From: [Mycobacterium] crassicus
GTDB lineage: Bacteria; Actinomycetota; Actinomycetes; Mycobacteriales; Mycobacteriaceae
Length of the DNA stretch: 64,000 nt
Direction of reading: 5' to 3'
Assembly: GCF_020181615.1 (NCBI RefSeq)
Contig: NZ_CP084029.1
Location: forward strand, 4,649,269 to 4,713,268
In this document: one piece after another, positions 4,181 through 57,112 of the stretch
How positions within the stretch are numbered: position 1 is the stretch's first letter
Layout: every line of letters starts with the position of its first letter
The notes under the pieces: generated by a model
The model's input: only the letters and a program-made list of their open reading frames with translations
Database searches by the model: none
What the model was told of the DNA's origin: nothing
Position numbers and translations under genes: made by a program

Positions 4181-7100
4181 CTAGCCGTGGTCGCCCGTTG
4201 CGCCTGGCGTACCGGGTCCGCCCGGATTGCCCGGGGCGCCGGTTGTGCCGTTGCCGGCGGACCCGGTCCCGCCGCCACCACCGACGGAGCCGTTGCCGAC
4301 AGTGCCTGCGGCGCCGCCGCCGCCACCGTTGCTTGAGCCGTAGATGCCCGAGGCGCCGCCGCCGGTACCGCCCTTACCGCCGGTGCCGCCCTTACCGCCG
4401 TCGCCGCCGTCACCGCCGGTGCCGCCGGTGCCGTTCGCGCTGGTGCCACCGGTGCCACTGGCCCCGGCATTGCCGCCGGTACCGGCGCCACCACCGGATC
4501 CGCCTTCGCGTGAGCCGTAGACGCCCGAGGCATTGCCGCCGGCGCCACCCTGGCCACCGGTACCGCCGATGCCACCGTCACCGCTGTCACCGCCGGCACC
4601 GCCGTTGCCATTGGTGGCGGTGCCGCCGAGACCACCGGCGCCACCGAGCCCGCCGGTCCCTGCCTTGCCACCGACACCGCCGGCGCCGGCCTTGTAGACG
4701 GCGGTGGCGTTGAAGCCCTTGGCGCCGAGGCCGCCGGTGCCACCCTGGCCACCGGTACCGCCGTTACCGCCGGCGCCGCCGTCGCCGGAGACCGAGCCGC
4801 CGGCACCGCCGGCACCGCCTTGTCCGCCGGTACCACCGACCGCACCGCCACCGCCGATGGTGCCGGTGTAGCCGCCGCTGCCGCTGTCCTGGCCGACGCC
4901 ACTACCGCCGGTGCCACCCTGGCCGGCGCTACCGCCGTTACCCCCGGCGCCACCGGTACCGACCAGCCCGGCGTCGCCGCCCTTGCCGCCGGTACCGCCG
5001 CCACCACCGACCGCACCGGCGCTGCCGTTGCCCATCGAGCTGTTGTAGCCGCCGCCTCCGGTCCCGTCGGTGCCCCTGGTCCCGGCCCCGCCGACACCGC
5101 CGTCACCGCCGGCACCGCCGTCGCCGTTGCCGCCGGCGGCCACCGAGCCGCCGGCACCGCCATTCCCGCCGGCGGCACCGCCGGAGCTGGTCCAGCCGGG
5201 CGTGCCACCGGACCCACCGTTACCGCCGCCACCGCCGACGCTGCCGGTGCGGTCACCGCTGGCCGTACCACCGGCGCCACCGTTGCCGCCGGTCCCAGCG
5301 GCTGCACCGGAAGTGTTGCCGACCGAAGCGAGCGCGTTGGCGTTGCCGCCGTTGCCGCCGTCGCCACCGGCGCCACCGATGTGGCCGGTGCCGCCGTTAC
5401 CGCCGAGGCCGCCCTTGCCGGCCGCCCCCGCACTGCCCGGGATGCTGTGCGGGTTGCCGCCGCCGTCCGCCGATGCACCGCCGGTGCCGCCGTTGCCGCC
5501 GGCGCCACCGTTGCCGGTGACACCGGTCGCGCTCGGTCCGGTGCCGGCCGCTCCGCCGTTGCCGCCCAGTCCACCGTTGCCGCCGAGCCCGCCGGTACCC
5601 AAGGTCCAGTTATTCGTATCGGTGCGGCCGGCTATCCCGCCGGCACCGGCATTACCCCCGGCGCCGCCCTGGCCGCCGTCGCCGTTGACGCCATTGGCGC
5701 CGTGCACGGTGCCGCCCTGGGCCGTTCCGCCGGCTCCACCATTGCCACCGGCACCGCCCGCGGCGCCGGCACCGCCGTCGCCGCCGCGGCCGCCGTCCTT
5801 CTGAGTCGCGTTGCTGGTGCCGGTAGCGCCGGCACCGCCGTTGCCGCCGGCACCGCCTTCGCCGCCGTTACCGCCCTTGCCGGCGGTGTTGGCCGCCAAC
5901 AGGCCGCCGTTGCCGCCCGCACCGCCGTTGCCGCCCTTGCTGCCGGCCGTGCCGGTGCCACCGGTGGTTCCCAAGGTGGTCGCCGCCGCACCGTCGCCGC
6001 CGGCCACACCGTTGCCGCCGGCGCCACCGTTGCCGCCGTTGCCCGCGCTGCCGCCGTCGCCGCCCTTGCCGCCGTTGCCGCCGACAGCGCCCGCGGTGGT
6101 CGGGGTGAAGCCGTTGCCTCCGTCACCGCCGTTGCCGGACGGCCCCTGAACGGCAGTGCCACTGGCGCCGTTGCCACCGGCGATTCCGCCGCCGCCGACC
6201 GTGCTGCCGGCCGCACCACCGGTGCCACCGGAGCCGGCGACGCTGCCCGGGTCACCGCCCTTGCCGCCGTTGCCACCGTTGACGGTGGTGGCGTTGCCGT
6301 CGGCCCCGCGTCCGCCGTTGCCGCCCTGGCCGGCGCTGCCCGCGTTGCCGCCCTGGCCGCCGTTGCCGTTGGCGCCGAAGGTGCCGTGGGCGGTGGTTCC
6401 GGCGTTGCCACCGGCGCCTCCGATACCGCCCGAGCCGGCCTGGCCGCCGTTGCCGCCGTTGCCGCCGTTGGTGCCGGCCACGGTCGGGCTGAACCCGGCG
6501 CCACCGGTGCCGCCGTTGCCGCCGGCGCCACCGTCACCGCCGACGCCGCCGTTGCCGGCGATGTTGATCGCCAGGGAGCCGCCGTTACCGCCGGCGCCAC
6601 CCTTACCGCCGTCGCCGCCGCCGGTGCCCGAACCGCCGTCGCCGCCGTTGGGGCTGCCGACCGTGCCCGGCGTTCCCACGGCACCGTTGCCGCCGACGCC
6701 GGTCTTGCCGTCACCGCCCGCGCCGCCGTTGCCGCCGTTGCCGACGTTGCCGCCGTTGCCGCCCGCACCGCCGGTGCCACCGCTGGTGCCGCCGACCGCA
6801 TTCGAGTCACTGGCCGCGTCGTAACCGGCACCACCGTGGCCGCCGTTTCCGGCCGGGCCAGTGATCGCCGTGCCGGCGTCGCCGTCGGCCCCGGCGTTGC
6901 CGCCGCTGCCGCCGGTTCCGACCGCACCGCCCTGGCCGGCCGTGCCCGCGGTGCCGATGTTGCCGCCGTCACCGCCCCTGCCGCCGTTGATGTTTGCCGC
7001 GTTGCCGGCAATACCGTCGGAGCCGTCGCCGGCCGTGCCCGCGTTGCCGCCCGTGCCTCCCGCGCCACCGGTGCCGTTGGTGCCCGCACTGCCCGAACCG

Positions 7101-25893: not shown

Positions 25894-27812
25894 TGCGCAC
25901 CGCGCTGGCCACCGTCGGTCAGATGATGCTGGCCGCCGCGGTGGCCGTCGTCGTCGCGGTGGTCGCGCTGGTGGCCATCTCCCGGGTGGAATGGCCGGCG
26001 TATCCGTCCTCGAACCAACTGCACGCGCTGACCACGGTCGGGCAGGTCGGCTGCCTGGCCGCCCTCGTCGGGGCCGGATGGCTGTGGCGGCGGAGCCGAC
26101 GGGCGTTGGCGTGGCTGGCCGGCGTGGTGTTCACCGCCGCGTTCGCGGTGGTGACGCTGGCGATGCCGTTGGGCGCCACCAGGCTCTACCTGTTCGGCAT
26201 CTCGGTCGACCAGCAGTTCCGCACCGAGTACCTGACCCGATTCACCGACAGCCCCGCGTTGGCCGACATGACCTACCTCGGGTTGCCGCCGTTCTATCCG
26301 CCCGGCTGGTTCTGGCTGGGTGGGCGGGCCGCCGCGTTGACCGGCCTCCCGGCCTGGGAGATGTACAAACCGTGGGCGATCACCTCGATGGCCGTGGCCG
26401 TGGCGATCGCCCTGGTGCTGTGGAACACCATGATCCGCTTCGAGTACGCGCTGGCGGTCACCATCGCCGGCGCCGCGGTGACGCTGGCCTACAGCTCCCC
26501 GGAGCCCTACGCGGCGATGATCACCGTGCTGCTGCCGCCGGTGCTGGTGCTGACCTGGTCGGGCCTGGGGGCCGGCGGGCGACTCCCCTCGCCGAGCGTG
26601 AAGTCCGCTTCACACTCGGACACCGACGGTGAAGCTGACTTCACACTCGGCACGGCCAACGGCTGGGCAGCGGTGGTGGGCGCCGGAATGTTTCTCGGGT
26701 TCGCGGCCACCTTCTACACCCTGCTGGTGGCCTACACCGCATTCACCGTGATCCTGATGGCGCTGCTGCTGGCGGCCATCCAGCGACGTCTCGACCCGCT
26801 GGTACGGCTGGTGGTGATCGGGGTGATCGCCTTGGCCATCGCGTCGATCACCTGGACGCCGTACCTACTGCAGGCCCTGGGCCACCCGGTCAGCGACACC
26901 GGCAGCGCCCGGCACTACCTACCCGGCGACGGCGCCGAACTGAGCTTCCCGATGCTGCAGTTCACCCTGCTCGGGGCGCTGTGTCTGCTCGGCACCCTGT
27001 GGCTGGTGGTCCGCGCCACCAAGTCGACCCGCGCGGCGGCACTGGCGATCGGCGTCGTCGGCATCTACCTGTGGTCGCTGTTGTCCATGCTGTCCACCCT
27101 GGCCCGCACCACGCTGCTCAGTTTCCGGCTGCAGCCGGCGCTGACCGTGCTGCTGGCCACCGCCGGGGTGTTCGGGTTCATCGAGGGCGCCCGGGCGCTG
27201 GGCCGCGCCGGCCACGGCTGGCACACCATCGTGCACCCGGCGGCGACCGCGGTGGGCCTGGTCGGCGCGTTGGCATTCAGTCAGGACATCCCCGAGGTGC
27301 TGCGGCCCGACATCACCGTCGCCTACACCGACACCGACGGCCACGGCGAGCGCGGTGACCGGCGGGCACCCGGCGCGGCCAAGTACTACGAGGCCATTGA
27401 TGCCGCAGTCGCCGCCGCCACCGGCAAGCCCCGCAACCAGACCGTGGTGCTCACCGCCGACTACAGCTTCCTGTCCTTCTACCCCTACTGGGGATTTCAG
27501 GGCCTGACGTCGCACTACGCCAACCCGCTGGCGCAGTTCTCGGCGCGCTCCGCTGCCATCGAGGCCTGGTCCAAGCTGGAGACCTCCGAGCAGTTCACCC
27601 GAGCACTCGACGATCTGCCGTGGCCGGCGCCGACGGTGTTTCTGATGCGGCACGGTGCCGGCGACACCTACACCCTGCGCCTGGCCAAGGACGTCTACCC
27701 CAACCACCCCAACGTGCGGCGCTACACCGTCGAGCTGGATATGGCGCTGTTCGACGGGCCGGCATTCAGGGTGGAAAAGATCGGCCCGTTCGTGCTTGCC
27801 ATCCGCACCTGA
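25893..27812 (+). CDS. aftA: Galactan 5-O-arabinofuranosyltransferase
   Basis: 639 residues (M. tuberculosis AftA about 643). A polytopic GT-C glycosyltransferase that uses decaprenyl-phospho-arabinose to attach the first arabinose residues to the galactan. Many transmembrane segments are visible in the first 430 residues, with the conserved first extracytoplasmic loop [16 protein letters not shown]. The last 200 residues form a soluble periplasmic domain ([20 protein letters not shown]). An unusual 20-residue hydrophilic insert at about residues 233-253 is encoded by two tandem imperfect palindromes and separates conserved membrane segments. It overlaps dprE2 by one base and is followed by embC after 36 bp. 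Confidence 0.95.
26592..26650. repeat. Two tandem 28-bp imperfect palindromes inside aftA
   Basis: Unit 1 (26592-26619) has 12-bp arms, CCGAGCGTGAAG and CTTCACACTCGG, with one mismatch and a 4-base loop. Unit 2 (26623-26650) has the same right arm and a left arm with two mismatches. The units are in direct order, three bases apart, and the reading frame stays open through both, adding a Ser/Asp-rich loop to AftA. Confidence 0.85.
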
Positions 27813-53947: not shown

Positions 53948-55033
53948 TCAGCCGTGCGGTGGATGCGGCGCGTTCTCAACGAGGCCCCGCGCCCAGTTCA
54001 GCGTCCACTGGGTTGCGGACAGCCCGTCCTGGCTCCAGACGTCGGTGGTGCCGTACAGCGCGTGCACCGGCTGAGCGGCACCGCCGGCCAGCGTCGACAG
54101 GGTCGCCGGCAGCTTGCCCACGCTGAACGCCTCCTGCGGGGCCGCACAGATCAGATCACCGGGCGCGCAGATCTCATAGGTGCGCTGGTCGAGGTCGCCG
54201 AAACCGCCCTGGCGCGCACCGGTCATGGTCAGCCCCATCCCGGACAGGATCGGCAGTTCATGCAGGGTCACCTCGGCGCCCTGACCGGCCGGGCTCGGCG
54301 GCACGTCTATTCCCACGCCGGTCTGGCGGCGGCCGTCGGCGATCAGCGCCACGCCCAGCACCAGATCCTCCTCGACCGGACCGTCCCAGTTGCCGATCTT
54401 GCTGGCCACGTCGCCGGCGATCACCGCGCCCTGCGAGAAGCCGATCAGCACGTAGCTGGTCAGCGGGCACCGCGCGTTCATCTCGGTCATCGCCTTGATG
54501 GTGGCGCGGGTGCCCTCCTCGCGGCTGTCGTTGTAGCTCATCTGCTTATCGGCCGACAGCGGATTGTGGAACTGCGCGGTGTAGGGAACCGTGTAGGTCT
54601 GCACCCGGGCGGCGTCGAACTGTTGGGCGATCGGGCGGGTCACGGTCAGCAGCAGCGCCATCGGGAACTGGGTGGGGTCGAGCGGGTTGTCCGTCGGCGA
54701 CGTCTCCCAGGTGCCGGGAACCGACACCAACTGCACATCCGGGCAGCTGGCGTCCTGTGAGGCCGGGCGCGGCTTCTTGGTCCGCGGCGGCACCGAGGCG
54801 GTGGGCGGGACGCCCTCCGACGGCGAGTCCGCGATCGGCGGTGAGGACGGGTGGCGAATCCAGATCACCACCATCACGGCCACCAGTGCGACTACCAGTG
54901 CCATCGCCCCGGCGGCCACCCACGCCAACAGGCGACGACGATCGCGCGGCGATTTACGCGGTGATTTCGTCGCTTTTCCGGGCGATTTCGCCGGTGATTT
55001 CCGGGGGGACTTCGGGGTCTTCTTGTTGGCCAT
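53948..55033 (-). CDS. culp6: Cutinase-like envelope lipase/thioesterase (Rv3802c homologue)
   Basis: 361 residues from ATG 55033. Essential cutinase-family enzyme in M. tuberculosis with phospholipase/thioesterase activity linked to mycolate and envelope metabolism. An N-terminal cytoplasmic tail is unusually rich in Ser-Pro-x-Lys units ([20 protein letters not shown]), then one membrane anchor (about 38-60, [19 protein letters not shown]), a Pro-rich linker and the cutinase domain. The nucleophile is Ser200 in [11 protein letters not shown]; the expected later Asp is near [10 protein letters not shown] and the His is probably in the HALYGTTD region. It sits between fbpD and fadD32 as in M. 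tuberculosis, but an opposite-strand gene cassette has entered upstream and a tandem repeat downstream. Confidence 0.93.
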
Positions 55034-55072: not shown

Positions 55073-55127
55073 GACTCTGCGTCCACCAGGCCCACTACTC
55101 GTACTTTCGTCTGCTGTACGCAGAGTC
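55073..55127. repeat. Left 55-bp hairpin repeat of the DUF559 cassette
   Basis: Starts GACTCTGCGTCCACCAGG and ends TACGCAGAGTC. The outer arms pair for about 19 bp with some mismatches around a 17-base loop containing TACTCGTACTT. It lies 45 bp upstream of the chosen start codon of the enclosed gene and 39 bp upstream of the culp6 start on the other strand, so it may also contribute to promoter structure. Confidence 0.9.
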
Positions 55128-55172
55128 AACGGGTGAAGTGTGCGCTGGACGCATCGCTGGCACGATCCCGGC

Positions 55173-56027
55173 ATGCGCGGATCGTGCAGCTGGCCGTTCG
55201 TCGGCTCCGAGGCGCTGGCCGCCGGTGCGGTCAGCTGGCATGAGCTCGGCCGTGATCACCGCGCGATCCTGCCCAACGTCTACCTGGACAAGCGGGTGAA
55301 ACCCCGCCTGCGGCAGCGAATAGTCGCCGCCTGGCTGTGGTCGCATCGCCAGGCTGTGGTCGCCGGGGTGGCGGCATCGGCACTACACGGCGCCGACTGG
55401 GTGGACGACGACGCCGTCATCGAGCTGATCTGGCGCAACGCCCGGACGCCGGACGGCGTCAAGACGTATGCCGACCTGCTGCTGGACGGGGAGACCCGTT
55501 CGTGGGGCCCGGTGAGATTGACGACGCCGGAGCGCACCGCCTTCGATCTCGGCCGGCGCGGCCCGCTCGGCCAAGCCGTGGCCAGGCTCGATGCGCTGGC
55601 GCGGGCCACCGGGTTCAAGATCGGTGACGTTGCCGCGCTCGCCGCACGGCACCCGGGCGCCCGCGGGCTGCGCCAACTCGAGGTGGCGCTGGATCTCGTC
55701 GACGCCGGTGCCGGCTCACCCAGGGAGACCTGGCTGCGGCTCCGACTGATCACAGCCGGATTGCCGCGACCGCAGACCCAGATACCGCTGCTCCGCCCGA
55801 ACGGCCGCTGGTACTTCCTGGACATGGGGTGGGAGGACATCAAGCTGGCCGTCGAATACGACGGCGACCAACACCGGACCAGCCGTCCACAGTTTGTCAG
55901 GGACGCCGAACGCCAGGAGTACATAGTCGGCGTCGGCTGGACACACATCAGGGTGCTCGCCGAGCACCGCGGCGACGACGTCGTCCGCCGGGTCCGACAA
56001 GCGTGGGAACACCTGACCAGGCGCTGA
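55173..56027 (+). CDS. DUF559/Vsr-fold nuclease-like protein with AbiEi-type N-terminus
   Basis: 284 residues from ATG 55173; a GTG at 55140 would add 11 residues. The N-terminus ([28 protein letters not shown]) resembles the winged-helix domain of type IV AbiEi-like antitoxins. The middle contains [17 protein letters not shown] and [14 protein letters not shown], a conserved block of this mycobacterial family. The C-terminus carries [20 protein letters not shown], matching the Asp...Glu-Tyr-Asp-Gly-x-x-His pattern of DUF559/Vsr-like endonucleases. Activity is not demonstrated for this family as far as I know. The gene runs against the surrounding operon and is flanked by 55-bp hairpin repeats, with its stop codon in the right one. 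No partner toxin gene is adjacent. Confidence 0.8.
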
Positions 56028-56080
56028 CTCTGCGCCCACCAGACGATCTACTCGTACTTGTGTCTGGTGGACGCAGAGTC
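56026..56080. repeat. Right 55-bp hairpin repeat of the DUF559 cassette
   Basis: A near-perfect palindrome: 19-bp arms beginning GACTCTGCGCCCACCAGAC pair with one mismatch around a 17-base loop. Its first two bases overlap the enclosed gene's stop codon, and it lies 26 bp past the fbpD stop, so it may also end transcription from both sides. Confidence 0.92.
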
Positions 56081-56106: not shown

Positions 56107-57000
56107 CTAGCGGATCGCGCCGACGATGTCGCCGGACATCGCCCCGAGCTGCGACGCCCACGAACCCCAGCCGTTGTCACCGGCGGAGAAGTCGAAATGG
56201 CCGTTGCGCCCGCGCACCTGGCGGTACTGCATGTTGAAGTAGCGGCCACTGCCGGCCGCCTCGCCCGGGTCGCCGATCATCGCGGCCGGGTTGGAAGCGC
56301 CGCCCACCGGGTTGTAGATCCACACCCGGGTGTTGTTCTGCGCCAGCAGGGTGGCGTGCACCGTCGGGTCGTGCCACTTCCAGCGGCCCAGCTGCGGGGC
56401 ACCCCACATGCCGTAGGGGTCCACGCCGCCGAAGTTCTGCAGGCCGGCGCTGATCACACCGCTCTCGGTGGTGTGCGACGGCCCGAGGAAGCCCGACATC
56501 GAGCCGGCGAAGCCGAACCGGTCCGGGTGGAAGGTGGCCAGCGCCAGCGCGCCGTAGCCGCCCTGGGCCGCACCGACCACGGCGTGACCGCCCGGGGCCA
56601 GACCCCGATTGGCGGCCAGCCAGTCCGGCAACTCGGACGACAGGAAGGTGTCCCACTGCTTGCTGCCGTCCTGCTCCCAGTTGGTGTACATGCTGAATGC
56701 CCCACCGGCCGGTGCCACCACCGAGACACCCTTGCCGGCCAAGGTGTTCATCGCGTTGCCCGCGGTCACCCAGTTGCTCAGGTCGGGGTGGGCGTCGAAG
56801 GCGTCGAGCAGGTACACCGCGTGCGGGCCCTGGTTGAGGAAGGCCACCGGGATGTCGCGGCCCATCGACGGCGACGGCACCATCAGGTTCTCGAACTGAG
56901 CGGCCTGCGCGCCTGCGCCGACGACCGTGCCGCTGGTCCACATTCCCAGTGTCAGCACGGCCACACACAGCGCCCGCATCAACTTCGACAGTCCGCTCAT
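56107..57000 (-). CDS. fbpD: MPT51/FbpD, antigen 85-like non-mycolyltransferase
   Basis: 297 residues from ATG 57000, with GAGG shortly upstream. A signal peptide (LMRALCVAVLTLGMWTSGTV) ends near AQAAQ; mature length fits MPT51. Alpha/beta hydrolase fold of the antigen 85 family: FENLMVPSPSMGRDIPVAFL, VVAPAGGAFSMYTNWEQDG, VVGAAQGGYGALALATFHP. The elbow GAAQGG replaces the GLSMAG of active mycolyltransferases, so the catalytic serine is missing. This is typical of MPT51, which is proposed to bind fibronectin or sugars. It follows fbpA in the same direction after a strong terminator, and precedes culp6 with a foreign cassette between. Confidence 0.94.
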   Translation of the reverse strand: MSGLSKLMRALCVAVLTLGMWTSGTVVGAGAQAAQFENLMVPSPSMGRDIPVAFLNQGPHAVYLLDAFDAHPDLSNWVTAGNAMNTLAGKGVSVVAPAGGAFSMYTNWEQDGSKQWDTFLSSELPDWLAANRGLAPGGHAVVGAAQGGYGALALATFHPDRFGFAGSMSGFLGPSHTTESGVISAGLQNFGGVDPYGMWGAPQLGRWKWHDPTVHATLLAQNNTRVWIYNPVGGASNPAAMIGDPGEAAGSGRYFNMQYRQVRGRNGHFDFSAGDNGWGSWASQLGAMSGDIVGAIR

Positions 57001-57112
57001 ACCCACCTCGTTCGTCGGGACAGATCAGTTGGGGGATCATCCGCTGGTCGCGCGCCCGGATCCCGCAAGGTAGTCAATCACACGGCACCAGCGACCAGGG
57101 CCGAAAACCACC

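Follow-up and report, generated by a model that had tools for sequence, protein, structure and literature searches.

The locus raises the question of why a nuclease gene should stand between two copies of one long palindrome in the interval between culp6 and fbpD of [Mycobacterium] crassicus, and whether gene and palindromes belong together. The window, by which we mean the whole stretch of 64,000 nucleotides that was analysed, holds a 5' palindrome (P5, 55073-55127) and a 3' palindrome (P3, 56022-56084, core 56026-56080), both annotated on the plus strand, which are direct copies with 46 of 55 bases identical. P5 is imperfect and lies 45 bases upstream of the ATG of the gene; P3 is near perfect and overlaps its stop codon. 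The loop ACTCGTACTT reads in the direction of the gene in P5 (55097-55106) and recurs in P3 (56050-56059). Between them the nuclease gene (55173-56027) encodes a 284-amino-acid AbiEi-like/DUF559 protein on the plus strand, and its TGA (56025-56027) shares its end with the first two bases of P3, counted from the core. Both neighbours lie on the minus strand: culp6 (53948-55033), a conserved anchor of the site that was matched in 118/118 genomes of the genus, and fbpD (56107-57006, from the open reading frame list). These two names come from the preliminary description and are used here as labels, both genes having been tracked by similarity; a match to fbpD adjoins culp6 in 29 of 30 loci, in one of them as a short and weak match, and the remaining locus ends earlier. 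The ATG at 55173 is the likely start of the gene as aligned homologues begin there, which disfavours a GTG at 55140. The layout reported in the preliminary description, two 55-bp direct palindromic copies with the right one near perfect and a gene opposite in strand to its neighbours whose stop overlaps the right copy, was reproduced by the coordinates and by hairpin scoring. The P3 hairpin scores 18, the joint highest value in the window, as against maxima of 12 to 15 in ten Markov resamplings, and the more imperfect P5 hairpin scores 12; hairpins scoring at least 12 number 20 in the real window versus 1 to 4 per resampling, several of those listed being GC-rich repeats elsewhere in the window. 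The common loop motif CTACTCGTACTTNNGTCTG, allowing up to 3 mismatches, has two matches, compared with a mean of 0.03 in shuffled sequence, where 1 of 100 shuffles reached 2. A further long palindrome with arms GCCGAGCGTGAAG and CTTCACACTCGGC lies at 26591-26651 and shares the highest hairpin score in the window; it resembles the palindromes at L209 and L210, which adjoin DUF559 genes of a different lineage, is probably a solo copy of another palindrome family and may lie within a gene.

The naming of the protein as DUF559/AbiEi-like, with a C-terminal EYDGDQH motif, held against Pfam, PADLOC and an alignment of 37 family members. The window protein scores 23.6 bits against the DUF559 model, above the curated cut-off of 20.6, and matches MTES_1575 with a score under the cut-off of that model. 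A Pfam scan of the 37 members (E up to 0.1) matched MTES_1575 in 36, DUF559 in 28 and, as the only other model, AbiEi_1; no transposase model was matched in any of them. The nuclease region (residues 214-265, 55812-55967, plus strand) carries the LDMGW and EYDGDQH motifs, and E185, D217, Y229, G231, H234 and D244 are invariant in all 37 aligned relatives; the protein is predicted to be a nuclease of the PD-(D/E)XK type (Vsr-like). The AbiEi-like N-terminal region (residues 36-131, 55278-55565, plus strand; PADLOC PDLC02228, E 1.8e-7), which is presumed to bind DNA, matches the PADLOC model in 37/37 members at E up to 0.1. A structure prediction from two sequences gave a mean pLDDT of 36.3, too poor for fold comparison. 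Pairwise dN/dS values of 0.14-0.37 among gene copies at two sites point to purifying selection, and the nuclease protein is therefore maintained. Each of the 36 other genomes of the genus that were searched has two to twelve DUF559 genes, and among relatives with a name Mycolicibacter sp. MYC123 and MYC017 came closest.

The pairing of gene and palindromes recurs well beyond this locus. We examined 116 gene loci (four from this genome, 29, 40 and 40 from relatives in match order, and three from the culp6 site), which are the best matches to the window protein and not a random sample; the last 40 were not strictly in match order, three having been picked first for a second palindrome family. 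A repeat between the 5' and the 3' flank scoring at least 20 was present at 73 of the 115 loci with both flanks, compared with 90 of 2300 mismatched pairs of flanks and with 1 of 107 control positions at a distance of 840-1100 bases. Hairpins were detected at a gene end at 87/116 loci, 41 of them at both ends, and neither a hairpin nor a flank repeat was found at 21/116. Among the first 73 loci, hairpins scoring at least 13 occurred in 28/72 5' flanks and 36/73 3' flanks versus 2/73 and 0/71 control stretches. Some of the 5' hairpins counted (L061, L064, L081) resemble ordinary terminators. Across 87 loci, palindrome similarity tracks protein identity (Mantel r 0.55); none of 2000 permutations reached 0.55 and none exceeded 0.09.

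The palindromes are also dispersed away from their genes. Window-type copies in this 4.87 Mb genome number at least 14: one pair flanks the gene, another pair flanks a gene scar at a second site, and ten are solo. This count is a lower bound as it covers the loci brought in by one genome search. The GC-richness of the genome makes the length of open frames uninformative, so a codon-position heuristic was used instead; by this measure a coding-like open frame runs across one of the 14 copies and is lacking in the other 13, and the copies would be mostly extragenic. Among the matches listed at E 0.001, window-type places number 15 in G093, 16 in G097, 6 in G102, 5 in G022, two each in G125 and G016 and none in G110. 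A second palindrome family, searched for in 61 genomes with a query from G013, has at least 15 places in both G013 and G033, 14 in G027 and 10 in G021, several of those in G021 and G027 being partial, and at most three matches in each of the other 57. All four of these genomes have a DUF559 gene between two copies of this family; the 5' copy in G027 has diverged and the 3' copy in G021 is inverted. For a third family this genome has five places, one of them next to the gene of that family, and nine relatives gave 1 to 6 matches apiece. The preliminary description had likened the locus to a REP/RAYT unit with a different class of enzyme, and this is supported: the element is not confined to the locus, solo and gene-bearing copies are both present, and copies elsewhere are associated with DUF559-type genes, as seen in the flank repeats, the second family and the Mantel correlation.

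The arrangement also occurs in other actinomycetes, outside the genus. In the class, 89 of 246 genomes have a protein match at E 1e-15; the 14 of these that belong to the genus of the window have from 4 to at least 10 matches each and the other 75 have one to five. Strong palindromes were present at the gene in six of 16 loci outside the genus, on both sides in three of these, and were not found at the gene in the other ten. The genome G314 has at least 40 copies of its palindrome (all 40 scored candidates matched, of 168 candidate places), which stands on both sides of its DUF559 gene and overlaps the end of the gene; it had no match in seven genomes of the same family. In the loci read from G314 (L298-L305) this genome-specific palindrome is about 58-72 bp long, and two copies lie under 2 kb apart. 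A search for empty sites around two of the G314 palindromes found no close relative. In Tsukamurella tyrosinosolvens NCTC13231 two 64-bp palindromes closely flank an annotated DUF559 gene, and the repeat occurs at 13 places in all in six records of the species. A single upstream palindrome was seen at an Arthrobacter locus and none at a Nonomuraea locus.

The history of the unit can be followed at single sites. The culp6-fbpD interval was read in 30 genomes of the genus: palindrome, gene and palindrome (P-gene-P) are present in this genome, G125 and G110; G093 has a gene fragment between two palindromes; G016 has the gene with the 3' palindrome; G022 and G097 have a solo palindrome; and in G102 the palindrome breaks off near a contig end. 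The gene in G110 stands at this site in a genome that gave no window-type element match. In the other 22 genomes the interval has no DUF559 match, and no such palindrome was seen in the sequence displayed for them, two long intergenic stretches among these having been viewed in part. MYC123 has P-gene-P at the culp6 site; MYC017 lacks the 5' palindrome there and has a shortened gene, which is followed (L246, 3240-3430) by other sequence and masked bases. The copies in G125, G110 and G016 belong together in gene lineage and in the type of inner stem, and differ in both from those of this genome. Synonymous divergence of the gene from that of this genome is 1.01, 1.07 and 0.69, respectively, as against 0.41-0.45 for culp6 and 0.20-0.35 for fbpD in the same comparisons. 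The gene dS also exceeds that of the neighbours in a pair with G142 (0.62 versus 0.38 and 0.23), so faster change may explain part of the excess; replacement of the unit at this site between those three genomes and this one is only suggested. At a second site, P-gene-P is present in G022, G093, G097 and G102 and in this genome only a short remnant separates the two palindromes (P-scar-P). When two of its solo sites were compared with five and two relatives, the palindrome was absent in two, an unrelated palindrome occupied the corresponding place in three and a collapsed remnant was left in two. About 18 bp remain at a solo site in L252 and L253 (near 5410-5440) and resemble the joined outer ends of the palindrome. 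A search of 348 loci for collapsed palindromes gave four matches, of which two had been known before, a third lay within an intact palindrome and the fourth is probably due to chance. Differing palindromes occupy one intergenic place in L248 (1501-1561) and the matching places of L259, L260 and L264. At a given site the gene seems to have been passed on mainly by vertical descent, and movement is therefore rare.

One explanation for these states is that the protein is a homing endonuclease proper, which would cut a palindrome lacking the gene so that the gene is copied in, dispersed palindromes then being no more than former landing sites or what lost genes have left behind. The occurrence of P-gene-P, solo and P-scar-P states at matching sites fits this, as does the Vsr-like character of DUF559. 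For the EDxHD family, the available part of PMC3943268 gives a target length just short of 60 bp. The similarity of profile A1 to the mobile intron protein 3r3p can be counted on the same side, at an E of 0.99 that two unrelated designed proteins better. However, both flanking palindromes remain around the gene, and insertion would therefore not protect the site; there are 14 window-type palindromes to one gene here, and the palindrome of G314 has no fewer than 40 copies to the one gene whose surroundings were read. Gene loss alone hardly accounts for such an excess, and we regard homing in this strict sense as quite improbable.

Another possibility is an ordinary insertion sequence or passenger cassette, in which an unrelated enzyme moves the palindromic ends in trans and the DUF559 gene is cargo. 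In outline P-gene-P does look like a small transposon, and the solo palindromes like non-autonomous versions of one. Against this, the window unit contains no second gene between its palindromes in the open reading frame list, and palindrome type follows the DUF559 protein. Neither a target-site duplication nor a clean insertion was seen at the few sites compared, where relatives are too distant to provide a clean empty site. Plasmid and phage records gave six and one weak protein matches, respectively, and no element match, and no relative of the protein was found in viral contigs. This explanation appears very unlikely indeed.

The form of the palindrome itself is informative on what may recognize it. 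All 41 elements examined are 57 nt long, even though the search pattern, which constrains the outer arms and leaves the inner stem free, permitted 53 to 61 nt. The window-type element pairs over 10 bp in its outer stem and, beyond a 3x3 internal loop, over 7 bp in its inner stem, and it ends in a 17-nt loop, in which TACTCGCACTT is the most frequent sequence; comparable loops were found in palindrome families with different stems. The preliminary description had asked whether the stem is conserved by compensatory change, and this proved so for the inner stem: in 43 window-type 57-nt elements 256 of 301 cells are Watson-Crick pairs, versus a mean of 186 and a maximum of 218 in 2000 shuffles of the 3' arms among elements. 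As a control, 64 of 129 cells pair in the internal loop (shuffled mean 53, maximum 69). Kinship among element copies inflates this test, and yet one pair is swapped whole, with C-G in 25 of the 41 elements and G-C in the other 16; we take such whole swaps as direct signs of compensation. On the loop-oriented strand the inner stem has 15 G-T pairs versus 10 A-C mismatches, which is not a clear excess, so RNA is not favoured over DNA; an Rfam search gave three matches, all under their gathering scores. Where it can be read, the loop motif runs in gene direction in 22/23 5' and 19/21 3' palindromes. The two flanking palindromes are direct, as in the window, in eight of nine loci with the motif on both sides, and inverted at L207 and, judged by eye, at L281. 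Matching palindromes differ in loop direction among genomes in two cases. For the palindrome of one and the same gene (L033, L327, L330, L337, L338), the loop reads one way in two genomes and the opposite way in three.

These features bear on a third explanation, that the palindromes are operators and transcription terminators: the AbiEi-like protein would bind them and so control the gene that encodes it along with a small regulon, with the nuclease serving, for example, in defence. AbiEi antitoxins bind inverted repeats, and the AbiEi-like region is found throughout the family. The positions are also suitable, as 5' palindromes end a median of 44 nt upstream of the start codon, where an operator might lie, and 54 of the 61 3' palindromes found overlap the stop codon, as a terminator might. 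Co-variation of palindrome and protein is equally expected of a regulator and its sites. In contrast, the fixed 57-nt plan with its 3x3 internal loop, compensation and conserved apical loop suits recognition of a folded strand over that of a duplex operator, and neither the copy number in G314 nor the alternation of solo and gene-bearing states at one site is readily accommodated by a regulon. Regulation is unlikely to be the answer, if still an explanation to be reckoned with.

We propose instead that P-gene-P is the gene-bearing form of an independently evolved partnership resembling that of REPs and RAYTs, with hairpin cutting and repair, and would put the probability of this reading at roughly 0.6. 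The protein, an AbiEi-like and presumably DNA-binding part fused to a DUF559 nuclease of the PD-(D/E)XK type, would recognize its own palindrome folded as a hairpin, either in single-stranded DNA at a replication fork or as a cruciform, and would nick or cut it. Host repair of the cut may then use another copy of the palindrome as template, which would homogenize the palindromes, interconvert solo palindromes and P-gene-P, and occasionally seed a palindrome at a new place. Cutting followed by repair from another copy would also put the gene exactly between two palindromes. Such a scheme fits because the gene is accompanied by a hairpin of its own, solo copies outnumber genes and flanking copies are closer to each other than to those at different loci, and because matching sites have differing inner stems and flipped loops. 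A hydrolytic nuclease has no joining chemistry, and spread would therefore have to rely on host repair. Binding of the hairpin, its cleavage and spread driven by repair are what we infer from these sequence patterns. Perhaps, and here we would go a little short of even odds, actinomycetes harbour an independent class of palindrome-nuclease systems, in which an AbiEi-DUF559 nuclease spreads its own hairpins, and sometimes its own gene, by cutting and repair copying.

A search of the open-licence literature, the coverage of which is partial, found no report linking DUF559 genes with palindromic repeats, so that an earlier description is possible, and nothing on DUF559 together with Mycobacterium; the available part of PMC3733652 mentions neither mycobacteria nor DUF559. 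Were the proposal true, the REP/RAYT arrangement would have evolved at least twice with unrelated enzymes, so that scattered hairpins accompanied by a cognate nuclease would represent a general type of genomic parasite or partner. DUF559 genes would gain a testable function and the long intergenic palindromes of actinomycetes an origin, and the spread of hairpin repeats would become testable with a second, chemically different enzyme.

Three known systems invite comparison. With AbiE the window protein shares the AbiEi-like N-terminal region seen in all 37 members, but it carries a C-terminal DUF559 nuclease, and its gene is neighboured by culp6 and fbpD with no AbiEii partner. The EDxHD (Vsr-like) homing endonucleases such as I-Bth0305I are, we presume, a nuclease class related to the window protein. 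They also resemble it in having a long DNA target, as far as the accessible text of PMC3943268 goes. Unlike these, the window gene is not in an intron and does not split its site, both palindromes being present; the palindromes are dispersed, and the sequence similarity stands at the E of 0.99 given above. The closest likeness in arrangement is to REP/RAYT systems, for which the available parts of PMC2817692 and PMC8266576 describe RAYT genes as having a REP on either side, co-evolving with these repeats, tracking their abundance and changing faster than neighbouring genes. The window gene, too, is flanked by two cognate hairpin repeats, as are its relatives at the 73 of 115 loci; the copies are dispersed, genome-specific and, here, mostly extragenic by the heuristic applied, their number tracks the cognate gene, and repeat and protein co-evolve. 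A further parallel with RAYTs, as described in those parts of the two papers (PMC2817692; PMC8266576), is that the gene diverges more quickly than the genes around it and palindromy persists. The RAYT enzyme, however, is an HUH tyrosine transposase related to IS200/IS605, whereas here DUF559/MTES_1575 is joined to an AbiEi-like part; the flanking repeats of a REPtron are inverted and those here mostly direct; and a GTAG-type head with a palindrome of 20-50 nt contrasts with a window-type element of 57 nt that has a conserved apical loop and, at the window copies, no adjacent GTAG, the window loop containing GTAG when read backwards. As the inverted orientation, the GTAG head and the HUH enzyme are not seen in the window, the unit would be REPtron-like in its working, yet it is no REPtron.
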